Made by a program: the position numbers and the translations under genes
Shown here: one piece after another, positions 33,563 to 51,602 of the stretch
Layout: each line of letters begins with the position of its first letter
Position numbering within the stretch: position 1 is the first letter of the stretch
Notes under the pieces: model-generated
What the model saw: only the letters and a program-made list of their open reading frames with translations
Databases searched by the model: none
What the model was told of the DNA's origin: nothing
Origin: Acidobacteriota bacterium
GTDB taxonomy: Bacteria; Acidobacteriota; Vicinamibacteria; Fen-336
Reading direction: 5' to 3'
Length of the DNA stretch: 64,000 nucleotides
NCBI GenBank assembly: GCA_011526565.1
Contig: WYBL01000163.1
Location: forward strand, 124,001-188,000

Positions 33563-36500
33563 TCACGGGCGGCGCGCGATCCGCTCGAACAGCCGGGTCT
33601 CGGCCGCCTCGGCCACCATCGCCCGGGTTTCCTCGGAGACGTCGCCCGCAGCGACGTGGGCCTCGAAGCCCAAGCTGGAGCTGGCGTTGCGCGGCGTCTC
33701 CACCTTCTCCCGCGCGTGGCCGAAGGTCTCGGCCAGCAGCCGGTCGAAGGCCGCCTCGTCGAAGACCTCGACCCGCGAGAGCTCCTCGTGGTGATCGGGC
33801 AGCCGCAACTGCTCGCGCACGTGCGCGAGGCGGCGCCCCGCCAGCAACTCGCGCAGGAACCCGTCGAGCGTCGTGGTGCGGAGCCAGTCACCGATCTCGG
33901 GCCACGCGCCCGGCTGCGCCCGGCCGCGCACCCAGTGGAAGAACGAGCACCACTGGTCGGCCGGCCGGCGCACGAAGGCGAACAGCCACCAGCCCTCCCG
34001 ACACAGGCGGCGCACGACGCGCGGCGGCCAGGCGTGGGCGTGGTTGTGGACGTAGGCGCGCGTGGCGTCGCGGGTCAGCGCGAGCAGCTCGTCCGGCAGC
34101 CAGTCGCGCCCGAGGCCGAAGCCCCACGAGTTGTACACCGCGTAGCCTCGCGGCCACAGCACGCGGTCGGCGAGATAGGCGTCGACGAACGTGCCCCCGC
34201 AGCGCGGCACGTGGACGAAGCCGATGCGCTGCGGCTCGGCGGCGACCGGACGCACGGGCCTCGCCGGAGGCAGGCCGGAGACCGCCGGTTCGCGGGCCGG
34301 CAGGCTCGGCCCCGTCGGCGCGGACGGGACGACCTCGTCGAGCACCTCCCGGAAGCGCCTGGCGTACTCGCCCAGGTCGTGGTCGCGGGCGGCGTCGCGG
34401 GCGGCCGTCTCGCCGATGCTCCGCCGCTCCGCCGGAGACATCGAGAGCAGCCGCTCCAGCGCCGCCACCAGCGCGCCGAGATCGCCGGCCTCGAACAGCA
34501 GGCCGTTCTCGCCGTCGCGCACCCGCTCGCGCACGCCGAAGACCGCCGTGGCCGCGACGCAGCGCGCGGCGGCCATCGCCTCCAGCACCACGAACGGCAG
34601 CGACTCGATGTCCGAGGCCAGCACGACGCCGTCGGCCGCCGCGAACCACGGCGCGACCTCGGAGGCCAGCGGCACGCACCGCACGCGGCTCTCCAGGCCC
34701 GCCGCCCGCAGGTAGCGGTGGAGCCCTTCCGAGTACCAGTTCGACTGGTCGCCGAGCACCACCAGCAGGGCTTCGGGGTGGCGCGCGGCGAGCTGGCCGA
34801 AGGCCTGGACGACGAGGGTCTGGCACTTGCGCGGCTCCACGGTGCCCGGGCAGAGCAGCACCGTGGCGTCCGCGGGCAGGCCGAGCGCGGTCCGCGCGGC
34901 GTCGCGCGACGCGGTGCCGAGGGCGGCGAGATCGAGGCCGTAGGGGAGCACGCGATGGCGCTCGACCGGGATCAGGTCCCGGAACAGGTCGGCCGTGGCC
35001 TGGGCGGCGAACACCGCCCGCTCGGCTTCCCGTACCGCGCGGGTGCCGCGGGCACGGACCGCCGCGTCCATCTGGAACGGATAGGCCACGGCCCAGAAGA
35101 CCTCGATCGGGAAGCTCTCGTGGATCGCCCACACGACGGGCAGGCCCAGACGGCCCGCCGCCTCCGCCCCGGCGAAGGCGCCCAGCGAGTTCACGACGAC
35201 GACGTCGGGCTGGCACCCGGCCGTCCAGGCGGCCAGTTGCGCGACCCGCGCCTCGTGCGCCTCGAGGTCGTGGACCGGGACGCCGTCGACCACTTCGACC
35301 GCGATCTCCGGGCGCAGCCGCGACCGCACCGGCCCGTCACCCGGCGACAGCAGCGAGACCTCCGCACCGTCGCTCACGAGCCGGTCGAGCAGCGCCGCAA
35401 GGTAGAGCTGCCCGCCGCCGAGGCCGAGGCCGTGGGTGAACGCCGCGATCCGCAGCGGCCGATCCGCGGACCGCGGGCTCCGCGGCCGGCGCGCCGCGGC
35501 CAGCGTCTGGCTGGCCAGCGGGTCCGCCGCCGCCGCAGGCAGGCCAACGCGACAGCCGTCGAGGTCGAGCGTCGTGCCGCCGAGCGTCGTGACCCGCGCC
35601 GTGACCTCGACCGCCTGCCCCCCATGTCCGGCGAGGTCGAGTTCCGCCTGGAACCCGCAGACGTGGGCCGCCGGCAGGCCGAACGCGAGGGCGATGTCGG
35701 GGCGCGGCTGGCCGAGGCGGGCGCGGCCGGCCGGCGTCCCGTCGACGAACAGCTCGACCCGCGCCACCGGGGCGTCCCGGTGCAGCGCCCAGCCGGTGAC
35801 CCGCGCGACCGACGGCGTGAGGACCTGAGGCGGGTCGAAGGACGCACGCCACGTCCAGTCGATCGCGCCGGCGGCACGCAGGCGGTCGAGCGGCAGCGGC
35901 AGGCCGCGCCCCCCGCTGCGCGCGACCTGGCGCAGCGCGACGCGCGTCGACTCGGGAAGCACGCGCTTGAGCGGCGCCTTGGCGGCTCGCGCTGCGGCCT
36001 CGAGCCAGCTCCGCCCACGCGCTGCGGCGTCGACCCGTGTCGTGGCCTCGGCCCATCCGCTGCGCAGGCGCACGATCTCCGCGTCGGCGCTCGCGAGTTC
36101 GCGGGTGGCCTGCTCCGACCACCGCTCCCACTGCTGCCGCGTCTCGTGCTCGCGCTCGAGTGCCAGATCCCTCTCGCGAGCCGCCTGCTCCAGCGCGGCC
36201 GAGAGCCGTTCCTCCTGGCCTTCGCTCGCCCGCAGGCCCCGCTGCAATGCGGCGCACTCGGCCACGCGGGCGGCACAACGCAGGGCCAGCGTGAACACCT
36301 GCGCTCCTTCGACTCCGCGGGGCCCGGTCCGCGGCCCGCCGCCCAGCGGAGCGTAGAGCCGCGGCAGCAACCAGGCCAGCAGCGGCTCGAGGCCGGCCGG
36401 CGGCAGGGCGCGGAGCAGGGCGCGCACCTCGGGCACGACGCGCTGCCAGGCCGCCTGGATCCCCGGCGCAGGCAGCGCAGCTCGTGCCTCGAGACGCTCG

Positions 36501-36973
36501 TAGAGCTCCAGCGGCTCGGGCAGCCAGGGCCGGAGCGCCTCGCGGACACGGCACAGGACCGGGCTCGCGAGCAGCGGCGGCAGCGGCGCATGCCGCGTCG
36601 GGACGCCGTCCAGCCCGAAGGCGGCACGGGCATCCGAGGGCCACGCGAGCGCGGCGTCGGACTGGAGCAGGACGCAGCGTCCCGGCCAGCGCTCGGCCAG
36701 GGCGAGGGCGCCACGAGCCGCCTCCACCCACGCGCCGAGCAGTTCGCCCGGCGCCGGGCCGCGCCGGCGCGACAGGCCGACGACGGTGTCGAGCGGGTGG
36801 CGGTAGGCGATTCCCAGCACCGGGCCCGGCTCGGATTCGGCCGGAACCGAGAGGCGCTCCCACTCGCCCGGCGGCACGGCTCGCGCGTCCAGCCAGCGTG
36901 CGAGGCGCGCCCAGCCCGAACCGGGCAGGCCGGTCACGAGCCTCGCGCAGGGCTCCGGCTCGCCAGTCCTCAC
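33563..36973 (-). CDS. Multidomain glycosyltransferase GT4 flanked by sulfotransferase-like domains
   Basis: This 1136-residue protein has five parts. Residues about 10-135 resemble a sulfotransferase P-loop fold (LVTGLPGSGWARLARWL). Residues about 243-306 are a coiled coil rich in Glu, Arg and Gln. Residues about 374-475 form a beta-sandwich. Residues about 502-881 are a GT-B glycosyltransferase of the GT4 type (HGLGLGGGQLYLAALL, PGTVEPRKCQTLV, ASDIESLPFVVLEAMA with the family's Glu-x7-Glu). Residues about 918-1136 are a second sulfotransferase (5' phosphate loop HVPRCGGTF; 3' phosphate region FVRRPADQWCSFFH). The usual Lys of PKTGGT is Arg here. It plausibly builds and sulfates an extracellular glycan. 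The GT2 gene lies 7 nt upstream in the same operon. Confidence 0.82.
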   Translation of the reverse strand: MRTGEPEPCARLVTGLPGSGWARLARWLDARAVPPGEWERLSVPAESEPGPVLGIAYRHPLDTVVGLSRRRGPAPGELLGAWVEAARGALALAERWPGRCVLLQSDAALAWPSDARAAFGLDGVPTRHAPLPPLLASPVLCRVREALRPWLPEPLELYERLEARAALPAPGIQAAWQRVVPEVRALLRALPPAGLEPLLAWLLPRLYAPLGGGPRTGPRGVEGAQVFTLALRCAARVAECAALQRGLRASEGQEERLSAALEQAARERDLALEREHETRQQWERWSEQATRELASADAEIVRLRSGWAEATTRVDAAARGRSWLEAAARAAKAPLKRVLPESTRVALRQVARSGGRGLPLPLDRLRAAGAIDWTWRASFDPPQVLTPSVARVTGWALHRDAPVARVELFVDGTPAGRARLGQPRPDIALAFGLPAAHVCGFQAELDLAGHGGQAVEVTARVTTLGGTTLDLDGCRVGLPAAAADPLASQTLAAARRPRSPRSADRPLRIAAFTHGLGLGGGQLYLAALLDRLVSDGAEVSLLSPGDGPVRSRLRPEIAVEVVDGVPVHDLEAHEARVAQLAAWTAGCQPDVVVVNSLGAFAGAEAAGRLGLPVVWAIHESFPIEVFWAVAYPFQMDAAVRARGTRAVREAERAVFAAQATADLFRDLIPVERHRVLPYGLDLAALGTASRDAARTALGLPADATVLLCPGTVEPRKCQTLVVQAFGQLAARHPEALLVVLGDQSNWYSEGLHRYLRAAGLESRVRCVPLASEVAPWFAAADGVVLASDIESLPFVVLEAMAAARCVAATAVFGVRERVRDGENGLLFEAGDLGALVAALERLLSMSPAERRSIGETAARDAARDHDLGEYARRFREVLDEVVPSAPTGPSLPAREPAVSGLPPARPVRPVAAEPQRIGFVHVPRCGGTFVDAYLADRVLWPRGYAVYNSWGFGLGRDWLPDELLALTRDATRAYVHNHAHAWPPRVVRRLCREGWWLFAFVRRPADQWCSFFHWVRGRAQPGAWPEIGDWLRTTTLDGFLRELLAGRRLAHVREQLRLPDHHEELSRVEVFDEAAFDRLLAETFGHAREKVETPRNASSSLGFEAHVAAGDVSEETRAMVAEAAETRLFERIARRP

Positions 36974-36980
36974 GCGTCCG

Positions 36981-38063
36981 CTACCAGCGCGGGGCCAGCG
37001 CCTGGGTCCAGGTGCCGGCGCGCCCGAGCAGCCGCGCCGCCACCAGCCCGGGATCGAGGGCCAGGCAGCGCAACAGTTCGCGGGCGGCGCTCGCCAGGTC
37101 GCCGCGCCGGCGCGCCAGCTTGGCCCGCAGCCAGACGCCGCGGCTGGCCACGGCTCGCCTCTCGCCGGCCCGCGCCGAAACCGCGGCGTACAGCGCTTCG
37201 GCTGCTGCCGTCGTCTCGGGCGACAGGGCCAGGGTCTCCGCCCACAGCAGGTGCTGCTCGACGAGCGCCGCCTCGATCCGCTGCGGGGCCAGGCCGAGCT
37301 CCGTCAACTCGGCCGCGGAGAAGCGGCCCGGGAGCGCGGCGGCGGCGGGTTCGGCGCGGCCGTCCCGGCGATGCGCCGCGGAGAGACGGGCGGCCAGCGC
37401 GCCCAGCGCCTGCTGCTCGAGCAGCGCGAGGCTCGTCTGGCCCGGGTGCAGGCGATAGCGCAGGACGACGGCGCGCAGGTTCGCGAGCGCTCCCAGTTCG
37501 GCCATCCGCAGCCACAGGTCGTAGTCGTCCGCCGGATAGAACCGCTCGCGATAGCCGCCGGTCCGACGCCAGGCTGCGGTCCGCATCGTCACGGCGGGAT
37601 GGGCCAGGGCGTTGCGCGAGAGCAGCCGGCGCCGGATCGCGGCGTCGCGGGCGGGCAAGGCGAAGACCTGCAGCGGGCGCCCCGCCGAGTCGACCAGTTC
37701 GATCGCGCCCCCGGCCGCCACGACCTCCGGATGCGCCTCGAGGAAGCGGACCTGGCGCGCCAGCCGCTGCGGGTGGCACACGTCGTCCGCATCCATCCGC
37801 GCGAGGTAGTGGCCGCGGGCGAGCCAGCAACCCGCGTTCAGGGCGGCGACGGGCCCGCCGCCGCCGTCGACGACCCGCACCCGCGGGTCCTCGCGCGCGG
37901 CCCGTTCGAGGATCTCCCGGGTGCCGTCGCGAGACCCGTCGTCGACCGCGATCAACTCGAAGTCGCCGAGGGTCTGGTCGCGGACGCTGGCGAGGGCCTC
38001 GGGCAGGAAGCGCTCCGCGTCACGAGCCGGCATCACGACCGAGACGAGGGGAGTGGAGGCCAT
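36981..38063 (-). CDS. GT2 family glycosyltransferase
   Basis: This 360-residue GT-A enzyme has VSVVMPARDAERFL at the start, nucleotide-binding VDDGSRDGT, the metal-binding MDADD (DxD) and a GYRERFYPADDYDLWLRMA segment with the catalytic-base Asp pair. The C-terminal 130 residues are helical with no clear motif. It transfers a sugar from a nucleotide donor, probably in surface polysaccharide or glycolipid synthesis together with the downstream GT4-sulfotransferase gene, which begins 7 nt after its stop. The ATG at 38063 has no strong ribosome site. A TACGCT (38092-38087) 23 nt upstream is a possible -10. Confidence 0.9.
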   Translation of the reverse strand: MASTPLVSVVMPARDAERFLPEALASVRDQTLGDFELIAVDDGSRDGTREILERAAREDPRVRVVDGGGGPVAALNAGCWLARGHYLARMDADDVCHPQRLARQVRFLEAHPEVVAAGGAIELVDSAGRPLQVFALPARDAAIRRRLLSRNALAHPAVTMRTAAWRRTGGYRERFYPADDYDLWLRMAELGALANLRAVVLRYRLHPGQTSLALLEQQALGALAARLSAAHRRDGRAEPAAAALPGRFSAAELTELGLAPQRIEAALVEQHLLWAETLALSPETTAAAEALYAAVSARAGERRAVASRGVWLRAKLARRRGDLASAARELLRCLALDPGLVAARLLGRAGTWTQALAPRW

Positions 38064-47137: not shown

Positions 47138-47143
47138 TAGGAT
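47138..47143 (+). promoter_or_regulatory. TAGGAT -10 box, kinase-cyclase operon
   Basis: TAGGAT ends 24 nt before the ATG at 47168 and only 3 nt before an in-frame GTG at 47147, so the GTG would not lie within the transcript. Confidence 0.45.
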
Positions 47144-47167
47144 GCCGTGCACTTCATCCGGGGGCCG

Positions 47168-49375
<2,208 letters not shown>

Positions 49376-49388
49376 ACCCGGGCCCGCC

Positions 49389-51602
49389 ATGATCGACAGC
49401 ACCGTCTCCCACTACCGGATCGCCGCGAAGCTCGGCAGCGGGGGCATGGGCGTCGTCTACCAGGCGGAGGACCAGAAGCTGGGCCGCCAGGTCGCGCTCA
49501 AGTTCCTGCCGGAGGAACTGGCCAAGGATCGCGCCGCGCTCGAGCGCTTCCAGCGCGAGGCGCGCGCCGCCTCGTCGCTCAACCACCCCGGCATCTGCAC
49601 GGTGTACGAAATCGACGAACACCAGGGGCGCCACTTCATCGCCATGGAGCTGCTGGAGGGCGAGACGCTCGCCGAACGGCTCCGCCGCGGGCCGCTCGAC
49701 GCCGCGGCGCTGGTCGATCTCGGCATCCAGGTCGCGGACGCGCTGGAGTCGGCCCACGCCAAGGGCATCGTCCACCGCGACCTGAAGCCCGCCAACATCT
49801 ACCTGACGCCCCGCGGCCAGGCCAAGGTGCTCGACTTCGGCCTGGCCAAGATCGAGCGCCACTCCCCGACCGACGCCCATTCCGAGGCGCCCACCGCGGT
49901 GCCGCAGGACCTGACGTCGGCCGGCACGGCGCTCGGCACCGTCGCCTACATGTCGCCCGAGCAGGCCCGCGGCCAGCTCACCGACTCGCGCACCGACCTG
50001 TTCTCGTTCGGGACCCTGCTCTACCAGGCAGCCAGCGGCCGGGTCCCGTTCCCGGGCGACACGTCGGCGGTCGTGTTCGACGCGATCCTCAACCGCGAGC
50101 CGGCGCCGCTCGCGGAGCACAATCCTGCGCTCCCGGCCGAGCTCGGCCGCATCCTCGGCAAGGCGCTGGAGAAGGACCGCAACCTGCGCGCGCAGACGGC
50201 GACCGAGCTGAAGACCGACCTGCTGCGCCTCAAGCGGGACCTCGACTCCGGCGGCCGCCGCGCGGCCGAGCTCGCCGACTCGCGCTCCGGCGCCGTGCGC
50301 GCCGCCCTCGAGACCTCGGTCGCGGTGCTCTACTTCGAGAACCTGTCGGGCGCCAAGGAAGACGAGTACTTCCGCGACGGGATCACCGAGGACATCATCA
50401 CCGAGCTGTCCAAGATCAAGACGCTCAAGGTCTTTCCCCGGCCGACGGTGCTGCCCTACCGCGACAAGTCGGTGACGCCGCAGCAGGTGGGGCGCGAGCT
50501 GAGCGCGGCCTTCGTGCTCGGCGGCAGCCTGCGCCGGGCGGGGGCCCGGCTGCGGATCAACGCCCAGTTGATGGACGCCAAGACGGACTTCCCGCTGTGG
50601 TCCGAGCGCTACGACCGCGAGATGGCCGACGTCTTCGAGCTGCAGGACGAGATCGCCCGCAAGATCGCCGAGGCGCTGCGCCTGACGCTCTCCCCGCAGG
50701 AGCAGCAGGCGCTGGGCGACCGGCCGACCGAGAACATGCAGGCCTACGACCTGTTCCTGCGCGGCAAGAGCTACGCCCGGCGGCTGACCCGCCAGGACAT
50801 GGAGTTCGCGCTGCAGATGTTCGACAACGCGGTGCTGCTCGACCCGCAGTTCGCCCTCGCCCACGCCGCCAACGCCATCTTCTGCGCCCAGTACTACGCC
50901 AACTTCCAGCGCGACGCGACCTGGAGCGGGCGCGCCCGGCGCGCCGCGGAGCAGGCGATCGCGCTGCGCCCCGAGCTGCCCGACGTGCAGGTCGCCCAGG
51001 CCTGGCTGCGCTACATCGACGGCGATCTGCCGGACGCCATCCAGCGCGTGCGTCAGGCGATCAGCCGCAAGCCCACCTGCGAGGGGGCGTACTACCTGCT
51101 GGGACGGGCGCTGTTCGCCGCCGGCCACTTCCAGGAGGTGGCCGACATCGCCGAGGCCGCCGTCGAGGCGGCGGGCGACGACTACAGCGTCTACGTGCCG
51201 ATCCTCAACGCGCTGGGCGCGCTCGGCAAGACCGAGGCCCGCGCCAGCTTCCGGCAGCGCCGGACCCTGGCGCTCGAAACCCACGTCGTCCGCGTGCCCG
51301 AGGACGCCCGGGCCCGGGTCCTGCTGTCGAGCAGCTACGCCGAGGTCGGCCGCGCCGACGACGCGGTGCGCGAGATGCAGTTCGCCCTCGCCCTGCGGCC
51401 CAACGACCCGTCGGTGCTGTACAACGCGGCCTGCGCCCGCGGCAAGCTGGGGCACCGCAAGGAAGCGCTGGACCTGCTCCGCAACGCCTGGGAAGCCGGC
51501 TTCGAGGAGGCCGACTGGGTGCGCCGCGACCCCGACCTCGCGCTGCTGCACGGCGACCCCGAGTTCGAGCGGCTCTACCCGGCGGGCCGCAGCGGCGCCT
51601 GA
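49389..51602 (+). CDS. Ser/Thr protein kinase with TolB-N-like and TPR domains (copy 2)
   Basis: This 737-residue paralog of the preceding kinase has all catalytic elements kept ([46 protein letters not shown]). The activation segment and TPR half differ most from copy 1, consistent with different partners or ligands. The TolB-N-like domain carries [19 protein letters not shown] and [10 protein letters not shown]. It starts 13 nt after copy 1 and ends 15 nt before the cyclase gene, so all three are one operon. No membrane helix is visible. Confidence 0.9.

Follow-up and report, generated by a model that had tools for sequence, protein, structure and literature searches.

The 64,000-nucleotide stretch of DNA analyzed here (the window) comes from an acidobacterial genome of the class Vicinamibacteria (contig WYBL01000163.1, positions 124,001 to 188,000) and carries on its minus strand, at 33563..36973, a fusion gene encoding 1136 residues from a GTG start. 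We interpret the product as a cytosolic glycan-modifying enzyme with two activities, in which a glycosyltransferase of family 4 (GT4) is followed by a C-terminal sulfotransferase and preceded by the remnant of another sulfotransferase module. We give this interpretation as a whole a probability of about 0.58. A previous reading made from the sequence alone (the sequence-only reading) had reported the same coordinates and length and had placed the GT4 enzyme between two sulfotransferase-like ends. The C-terminal end does resemble Sulfotransfer_2 proteins when approached through intermediates, but the N-terminal end is at best a weakly matching, shortened, and motif-depleted remnant of the Sulfotransfer_3 type.

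The GT4 domain spans residues 507–880 (34334..35455; this and all other parts of the protein lie on the minus strand). Three Pfam models matched it above their curated cut-offs: PF13692 (E 2.1e-24, 86.8 bits against 27), PF00534 (E 1.4e-23, 83.7 bits against 26.4), and PF13439 (E 1.3e-13, 51.8 bits against 28.5). The EX7E motif is intact in the sequence (ESLPFVVLE, residues 790–798, 34580..34606), so that the GT4 assignment of the sequence-only reading was borne out. The same motif is found in a related fusion protein of the same genus (below).

We label the genome of the window G000 (5.8 Mb in 181 contigs), a congener G001 (the public metagenome-assembled genome "Vicinamibacteria bacterium isolate ACD1," JAMQGV010000046), and a further member of the genus G002. 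The G001 orthologue is 96% identical over the full length with zero indels. From the synonymous and nonsynonymous differences between G000 and G001, the ratio of nonsynonymous to synonymous rates (dN/dS) is 0.30 for the whole gene. By segment, with small counts in each case, it is 0.15 in GT4, compared with 0.27 in the N-terminal region and 0.33 in the C-terminal domain. These values are low and thus indicate that the main segments have been maintained as protein by purifying selection. Judged from the orthologue and the dN/dS values, the reading frame is a genuine gene. The G002 fusion is 43% identical to the window protein over residues 327–1129. As a separate observation, dS in the GT4 segment (34334-35455) is 0.033, whereas most other segments of the gene have values of 0.07–0.14; local gene conversion is a possible cause.

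The C-terminal domain and its P-loop

Residues 913–1136 (33566..34237) make up a divergent Sulfotransfer_2-type domain, recognized through relatives by profile-profile and motif evidence. Within the genus the domain occurs both fused (G000, G001, and G002) and as a stand-alone protein (G000 C149, G001 C29, and G002 C176). A profile of five members of this family, A1, was searched against 193 genomes of the class and 396 of the phylum; outside the family it found one match only, a stand-alone protein of genome G045 (E 3.8e-5). That protein resembles an ordinary Sulfotransfer_2 protein (FVYLHLPKTGGTFV) and scores 18 bits with PF03567 (E 0.0035), where the cut-off is 22. In hhalign comparisons A1 matched the G045 protein with a probability of 94% and the Sulfotransfer_2 proteins of the class with 96% and a score of 65.7, where the best of 60 column shuffles was 20.7. 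Against a second alignment of Sulfotransfer_2 proteins, from which the G045 protein had been left out, A1 scored 43.3 (76%; shuffles at most 19.6). Used as a profile, this second alignment matched crystal structures of heparan sulfate 2-O-sulfotransferase (3F5F, E 4.7e-12). No match between A1 and Sulfotransfer_3 profiles was found by hhalign. By these comparisons the C-terminus is homologous to Sulfotransfer_2, in a divergent form that is reached through intermediates. Coverage wider than the class and phylum samples came from a single pattern scan of public genomes; searches of viral contigs and plasmids for the C-terminal family gave zero matches.

Three motifs locate the putative active site. 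The 5′-phosphosulfate motif (P-loop) aligns with HVPRCGGT at residues 921–928 (34190..34213), where an arginine occupies the lysine position. The sequence HNH at residues 976–978 (34040..34048) falls on the HGH of Sulfotransfer_2 proteins in both MAFFT and hhalign alignments, and the histidines of this H-x-H element are catalytic in heparan 2-O-sulfotransferase. The 3′-phosphate motif, RRPADQWCS at residues 1002–1010 (33944..33970), keeps the conserved Arg-1002, Pro-1004, and Ser-1010; it was also matched, below threshold, by the PHROG family Galactose-3-O-sulfotransferase (E 0.008). In a joint alignment of the family and its relatives (A5), His-22 and Gly-28 of the P-loop and Arg-103, Pro-105, and Ser-111 of the 3′-phosphate motif are invariant. 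The P-loop, H-x-H, and R-x-P...S come in the same order and at the same spacing as in heparan sulfate 2-O-sulfotransferase (PF03567; PDB 3F5F and 4NDZ). The window domain differs from Sulfotransfer_2 proteins in scoring below the Pfam cut-off, in the P-loop arginine, in its fusion behind GT4, and in a distal half that does not align convincingly.

The lysine-to-arginine change, which had led the sequence-only reading to question whether the domain is active, is present at residue 924 and departs from the canonical H-x-P-K-x-x-G-T. Nevertheless, it recurs in a second fusion and so is no isolated lesion. The sequence is HVPRCGGT in the fused domains of G000 and G001 and HLPRTGGT in that of G002; the arginine is thus common to two fusions that are now only about 40% identical, whereas the stand-alone paralogues (HVMKTAGS and HLMKSAGS) keep the lysine. 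Sulfotransfer_3 proteins of these genomes likewise have arginine at this site (PRSGTT and HRSGTS). Because arginine is standard in that family, the change alone is no argument for lost binding of 3′-phosphoadenosine 5′-phosphosulfate (PAPS) or for inactivity. As the H-x-H element is intact, and so are the remaining residues of the PAPS site, sulfotransferase activity of the C-terminal domain is plausible.

Several results weigh against this assignment. Residues 900–1136 gave zero direct matches to the curated Pfam and NCBIfam sulfotransferase models, including PF03567 at its cut-off, and direct searches with both ends of the protein against Pfam, NCBIfam, PHROG, and PDB sequences returned no sulfotransferase above threshold; it was through relatives that the C-terminus, and weakly the N-terminus, could be connected to these families. 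Past the motif half at about residues 913–1060, no convincing alignment with Sulfotransfer_2 was obtained. The AlphaFold model of the C-terminal end has a mean predicted local distance difference test (pLDDT) score of 38, from an alignment of two sequences, of which the other is a relative 94–95% identical. An alternative is that GT4 alone is active and that neither of the ends derived from sulfotransferases is catalytic, with the C-terminus serving as a scaffold or merely binding an acceptor, PAPS, or its desulfated product PAP. The divergence of the C-terminus below Pfam detection, the replacement of the lysine in both fusions, and the presence of a remnant at the other end of the chain all fit such a protein, as does a C-terminal dN/dS of 0.33 against 0.15 in GT4, which is compatible with relaxed constraint. 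However, fused and stand-alone forms alike share without exception the H-x-H element, the glycine of the P-loop, and the arginine, proline, and serine at the 3′-site; the arginine at the lysine position has its counterpart in Sulfotransfer_3; and the dN/dS of 0.33, which derives from 12 nonsynonymous changes, is still well below 1. We regard this alternative as doubtful and prefer a C-terminal domain that retains activity.

Two further Sulfotransfer_2-related genes were observed. The stand-alone, lysine-bearing paralogue (L039:9578-10381:- in G000 and L041:9495-10439:+ in G001) lies between truB-like and ABC-F-like genes, remote from glycan genes. In genome G063 (L101:1138-2289:+), a polyhydroxyalkanoate granule-region domain (PF09650) is followed by Sulfotransfer_2 in one frame, an odd combination.

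The N-terminal region

Residues 9–212 (36338..36949) appear to be a degenerate remnant of a Sulfotransfer_3 plus coiled-coil module, an assignment in which we have moderate confidence from profile comparisons. Among 100 relatives searched, residues 1–231 are present only in G000 and G001; the G002 fusion lacks the region and begins directly with a short coiled coil. One weak match, L052, belongs to a genuine Sulfotransfer_3 protein that also has a coiled coil and ends in a "SASWKIT" helix; this match led to a family of such proteins in 13 of the 193 class genomes. A profile of the 3′-phosphate segment of that family scored the window N-terminus at 9.2 bits, which 0 of 5000 shuffles equaled. 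Over 1900 real-frame segments, nearly all that scored equally or higher were orthologues or sulfotransferases; only a frame of a family 2 glycosyltransferase (GT2) of G002 (9.4 bits), present in several overlapping loci, was neither. The hhalign score of the N-terminus against the Sulfotransfer_3 plus coiled-coil family was 28.4, and 200 shuffles reached at most 18.2. Members of this family (L111, L106, and L121) resemble the window N-terminus in the R-H-P segment, the coiled coil, the "SW" helix, and, in L106, the glycosyltransferase that follows. The other weak single-sequence matches of the N-terminus (L048–L051 and L053–L057) were, where examined, unrelated genes or antisense frames. When the shortened N-terminus was aligned with intact members by MAFFT, the register came out wrong, and segment profiles were used instead.

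Relative to L111, L106, and L121, the window N-terminus has lost residues of the PAPS site. The P-loop-like motif GLPGSGW (residues 15–21, 36911..36931) departs from the Sulfotransfer_3 pattern [PH]RSGT, with glycine for arginine and tryptophan for threonine when compared with the GMHRSGTS of the relatives, and in the 3′-phosphate-site motif RHPLD (residues 58–62, 36788..36802) the serine that should follow is replaced by glycine. The distance from the P-loop to R-x-P is 43 residues in the window protein and 116–130 in all eight family members in which both motifs were located; about 80 core residues are missing, the KDPR segment among them. Given these losses the N-terminus should not be taken for another functional sulfotransferase; it probably binds no PAPS and is inactive. 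A chain with two sulfotransferases, the N-terminal one functional and very divergent, would account for the retention of the region in two species at a dN/dS of 0.27 and for its weak homology to the Sulfotransfer_3 plus coiled-coil family. It would also have to work with the P-loop arginine and threonine and the 3′-site serine all replaced, without the roughly 80 core residues, and as a part that the G002 fusion does without entirely, and we consider it highly improbable. If the region is indeed a decayed module, it illustrates that sulfotransferase domains in glycan-assembly chains can become non-catalytic parts, and it is a trap for annotation.

A different possibility is that the N-terminal region does not derive from a sulfotransferase at all, and that GLPGSGW and RHPLD arose by chance in a linker rich in alanine, arginine, and proline, leaving the C-terminus as the only sulfotransferase. 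The case for chance draws on several observations. The P-loop sub-profile was not significant on the N-terminus, where 1152 of 5000 shuffles reached its score; the region has no database match, in particular none to PF13469 at cut-off, the sole PF13469 match of G000 lying elsewhere (C93); and the AlphaFold model of this end is of low confidence (pLDDT 44, from an alignment with one 94–95%-identical relative). The link to sulfotransferases consists of a single motif and some 60 residues. Nevertheless, none of 5000 shuffles, and hardly any background segment other than those from sulfotransferases, scored as high as the 3′-site half, the hhalign score exceeded every one of 200 shuffles, and the place of the region ahead of a coiled coil and a glycosyltransferase agrees with related chains. 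A chance resemblance is thus unlikely in our view, and we retain the Sulfotransfer_3 remnant in our interpretation.

Proposed function and related fusions

In the mechanism that we propose, GT4 would add a sugar to an acceptor, either a glycan or a lipid-linked molecule, that a presumably co-transcribed GT2 enzyme partly provides by starting or extending the chain. The C-terminal domain would then move the sulfate of PAPS onto a hydroxyl of the GT4 product, with the arginine gripping the 5′-phosphosulfate in place of lysine and the H-x-H element as the likely base. The N-terminus, a putative leftover of a module like those fused to glycosyltransferases elsewhere in the class, would, its PAPS site lost, at most join the coiled coil and sandwich-like segment in assembly or acceptor binding. 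Catalytic activity, reaction order, substrate, and N-terminal role are as we infer them here, and the product may be a sulfated surface glycan. The GT2 gene (36981..38063, minus strand; PF00535, E 2.5e-31) lies directly upstream, and the GTG of the fusion follows its stop after only 8 nucleotides, so that the two genes are probably co-expressed and presumably co-transcribed. An adenosine 5′-phosphosulfate (APS) kinase gene in the G000 genome means that PAPS can be made. On the other side of the balance, the locus contains just this pair of GT2 and GT4 genes, and no flippase, polymerase, or ATP-binding cassette (ABC) exporter was seen among the window neighbors examined.

Sulfotransferase-glycosyltransferase fusions, as identified by sequence, recur in Vicinamibacteria, and the window protein is an unusual variant of them. 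L106 (1082 residues), which is in the same family, joins Sulfotransfer_3, a coiled coil, GT4, and GT2 in one chain; L129 has a partial Sulfotransfer_3-like domain and repeated GT2 domains; and L130 (L130:1236-7397:+) is a single frame of 2054 residues with Sulfotransfer_3-like, coiled-coil, WbsX, GT4, and GT2 parts. All three share with the window protein a sulfotransferase-type domain, a coiled coil, and at least one glycosyltransferase per chain. They differ from it in that no C-terminal Sulfotransfer_2 domain was found in any of them and in that the N-terminal sulfotransferase of L106 is intact. In L098 of G002 (669 residues), a bona fide Sulfotransfer_2 domain (PF03567, E 2.3e-9) lies C-terminal to GT4. 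This protein resembles the window protein in that order of domains but keeps the lysine, lacks an N-terminal extension, and shows no significant sequence similarity to it. L098 is an independent fusion, and GT4 and Sulfotransfer_2-type domains have therefore been joined at least twice in the genus. The sequence-only reading had called the combination rare, which is too strong for this group in light of these chains. The window gene stands apart by its pairing of two sulfotransferase families, with the remnant of one at its N-terminal end and a divergent domain of the other at its C-terminal end. A literature phrase search found no described glycosyltransferase-sulfotransferase fusion in the library searched.

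The L098 gene (L098:244-2250:+, also L142:6925-8931:+ in G002 C144) lies near ORFs (open reading frames) whose products, judged by eye, look like a sugar-nucleotide dehydratase and an ABC-2 permease; its surroundings are possibly an ABC-type surface-glycan locus. In a second G002 cluster (L042:1335-7770, C176), a stand-alone sulfotransferase-like gene, a GT4 with a sandwich-like segment, a GT2, and the GT4-sulfotransferase fusion occur together; the GT2 adjoins the fusion there as it does in the window.

A sulfated exopolysaccharide made by glycosyltransferases and sulfotransferases is known experimentally in Synechocystis (PMC8205485). The synechan (xss) pathway resembles the window protein in pairing the two kinds of enzyme for a sulfated bacterial glycan, but its two sulfotransferases and eight glycosyltransferases are encoded by separate genes in a cyanobacterial Wzx/Wzy cluster (PMC8205485). 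As of 2021, no bacterial sulfated polysaccharide had been reported outside cyanobacteria (PMC8205485). A paper of 2026 proposes one for Actinoplanes on the basis of its gene content (PMC13390465). Two independent fusions of GT4 with Sulfotransfer_2-type domains in one acidobacterial genus are circumstantial evidence that sulfated glycans may exist there. The furthest-reaching version, a single-chain "glycosylate-then-sulfate" enzyme outside cyanobacteria, with an arginine-type PAPS loop selected after fusion and a decayed second sulfotransferase as acceptor-docking module, is speculative and probably not correct in full; if true, it would imply sulfated glycans in Acidobacteriota. The window protein offers a compact chain for testing both transfers, of sugar and of sulfate, at once.

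Accessory segments and neighboring genes

Between the N-terminal region and GT4 lie three further segments. A predicted coiled coil (residues 236–316, 36026..36268) shows heptad periodicity, and its position agrees with that in L111- and L106-type chains; both are consistent with the coiled coil of the sequence-only reading. It is followed by a putative "SW...APLKR" helix (residues 321–345, 35939..36013) that, on sequence, is comparable to the "SASWKIT" helix of L111. The β-sandwich-like accessory segment (residues 372–478, 35540..35860) matched zero Pfam models and recurs in further genomes of the class.

The window neighbors examined encode a DUF885 protein, a glycogen phosphorylase, and a protein with a match to a GH31 C-terminal domain. 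Farther away, at 47141-51599 on the plus strand, two neighboring long ORFs appear by sequence to be tandem, closely similar serine/threonine kinase genes.

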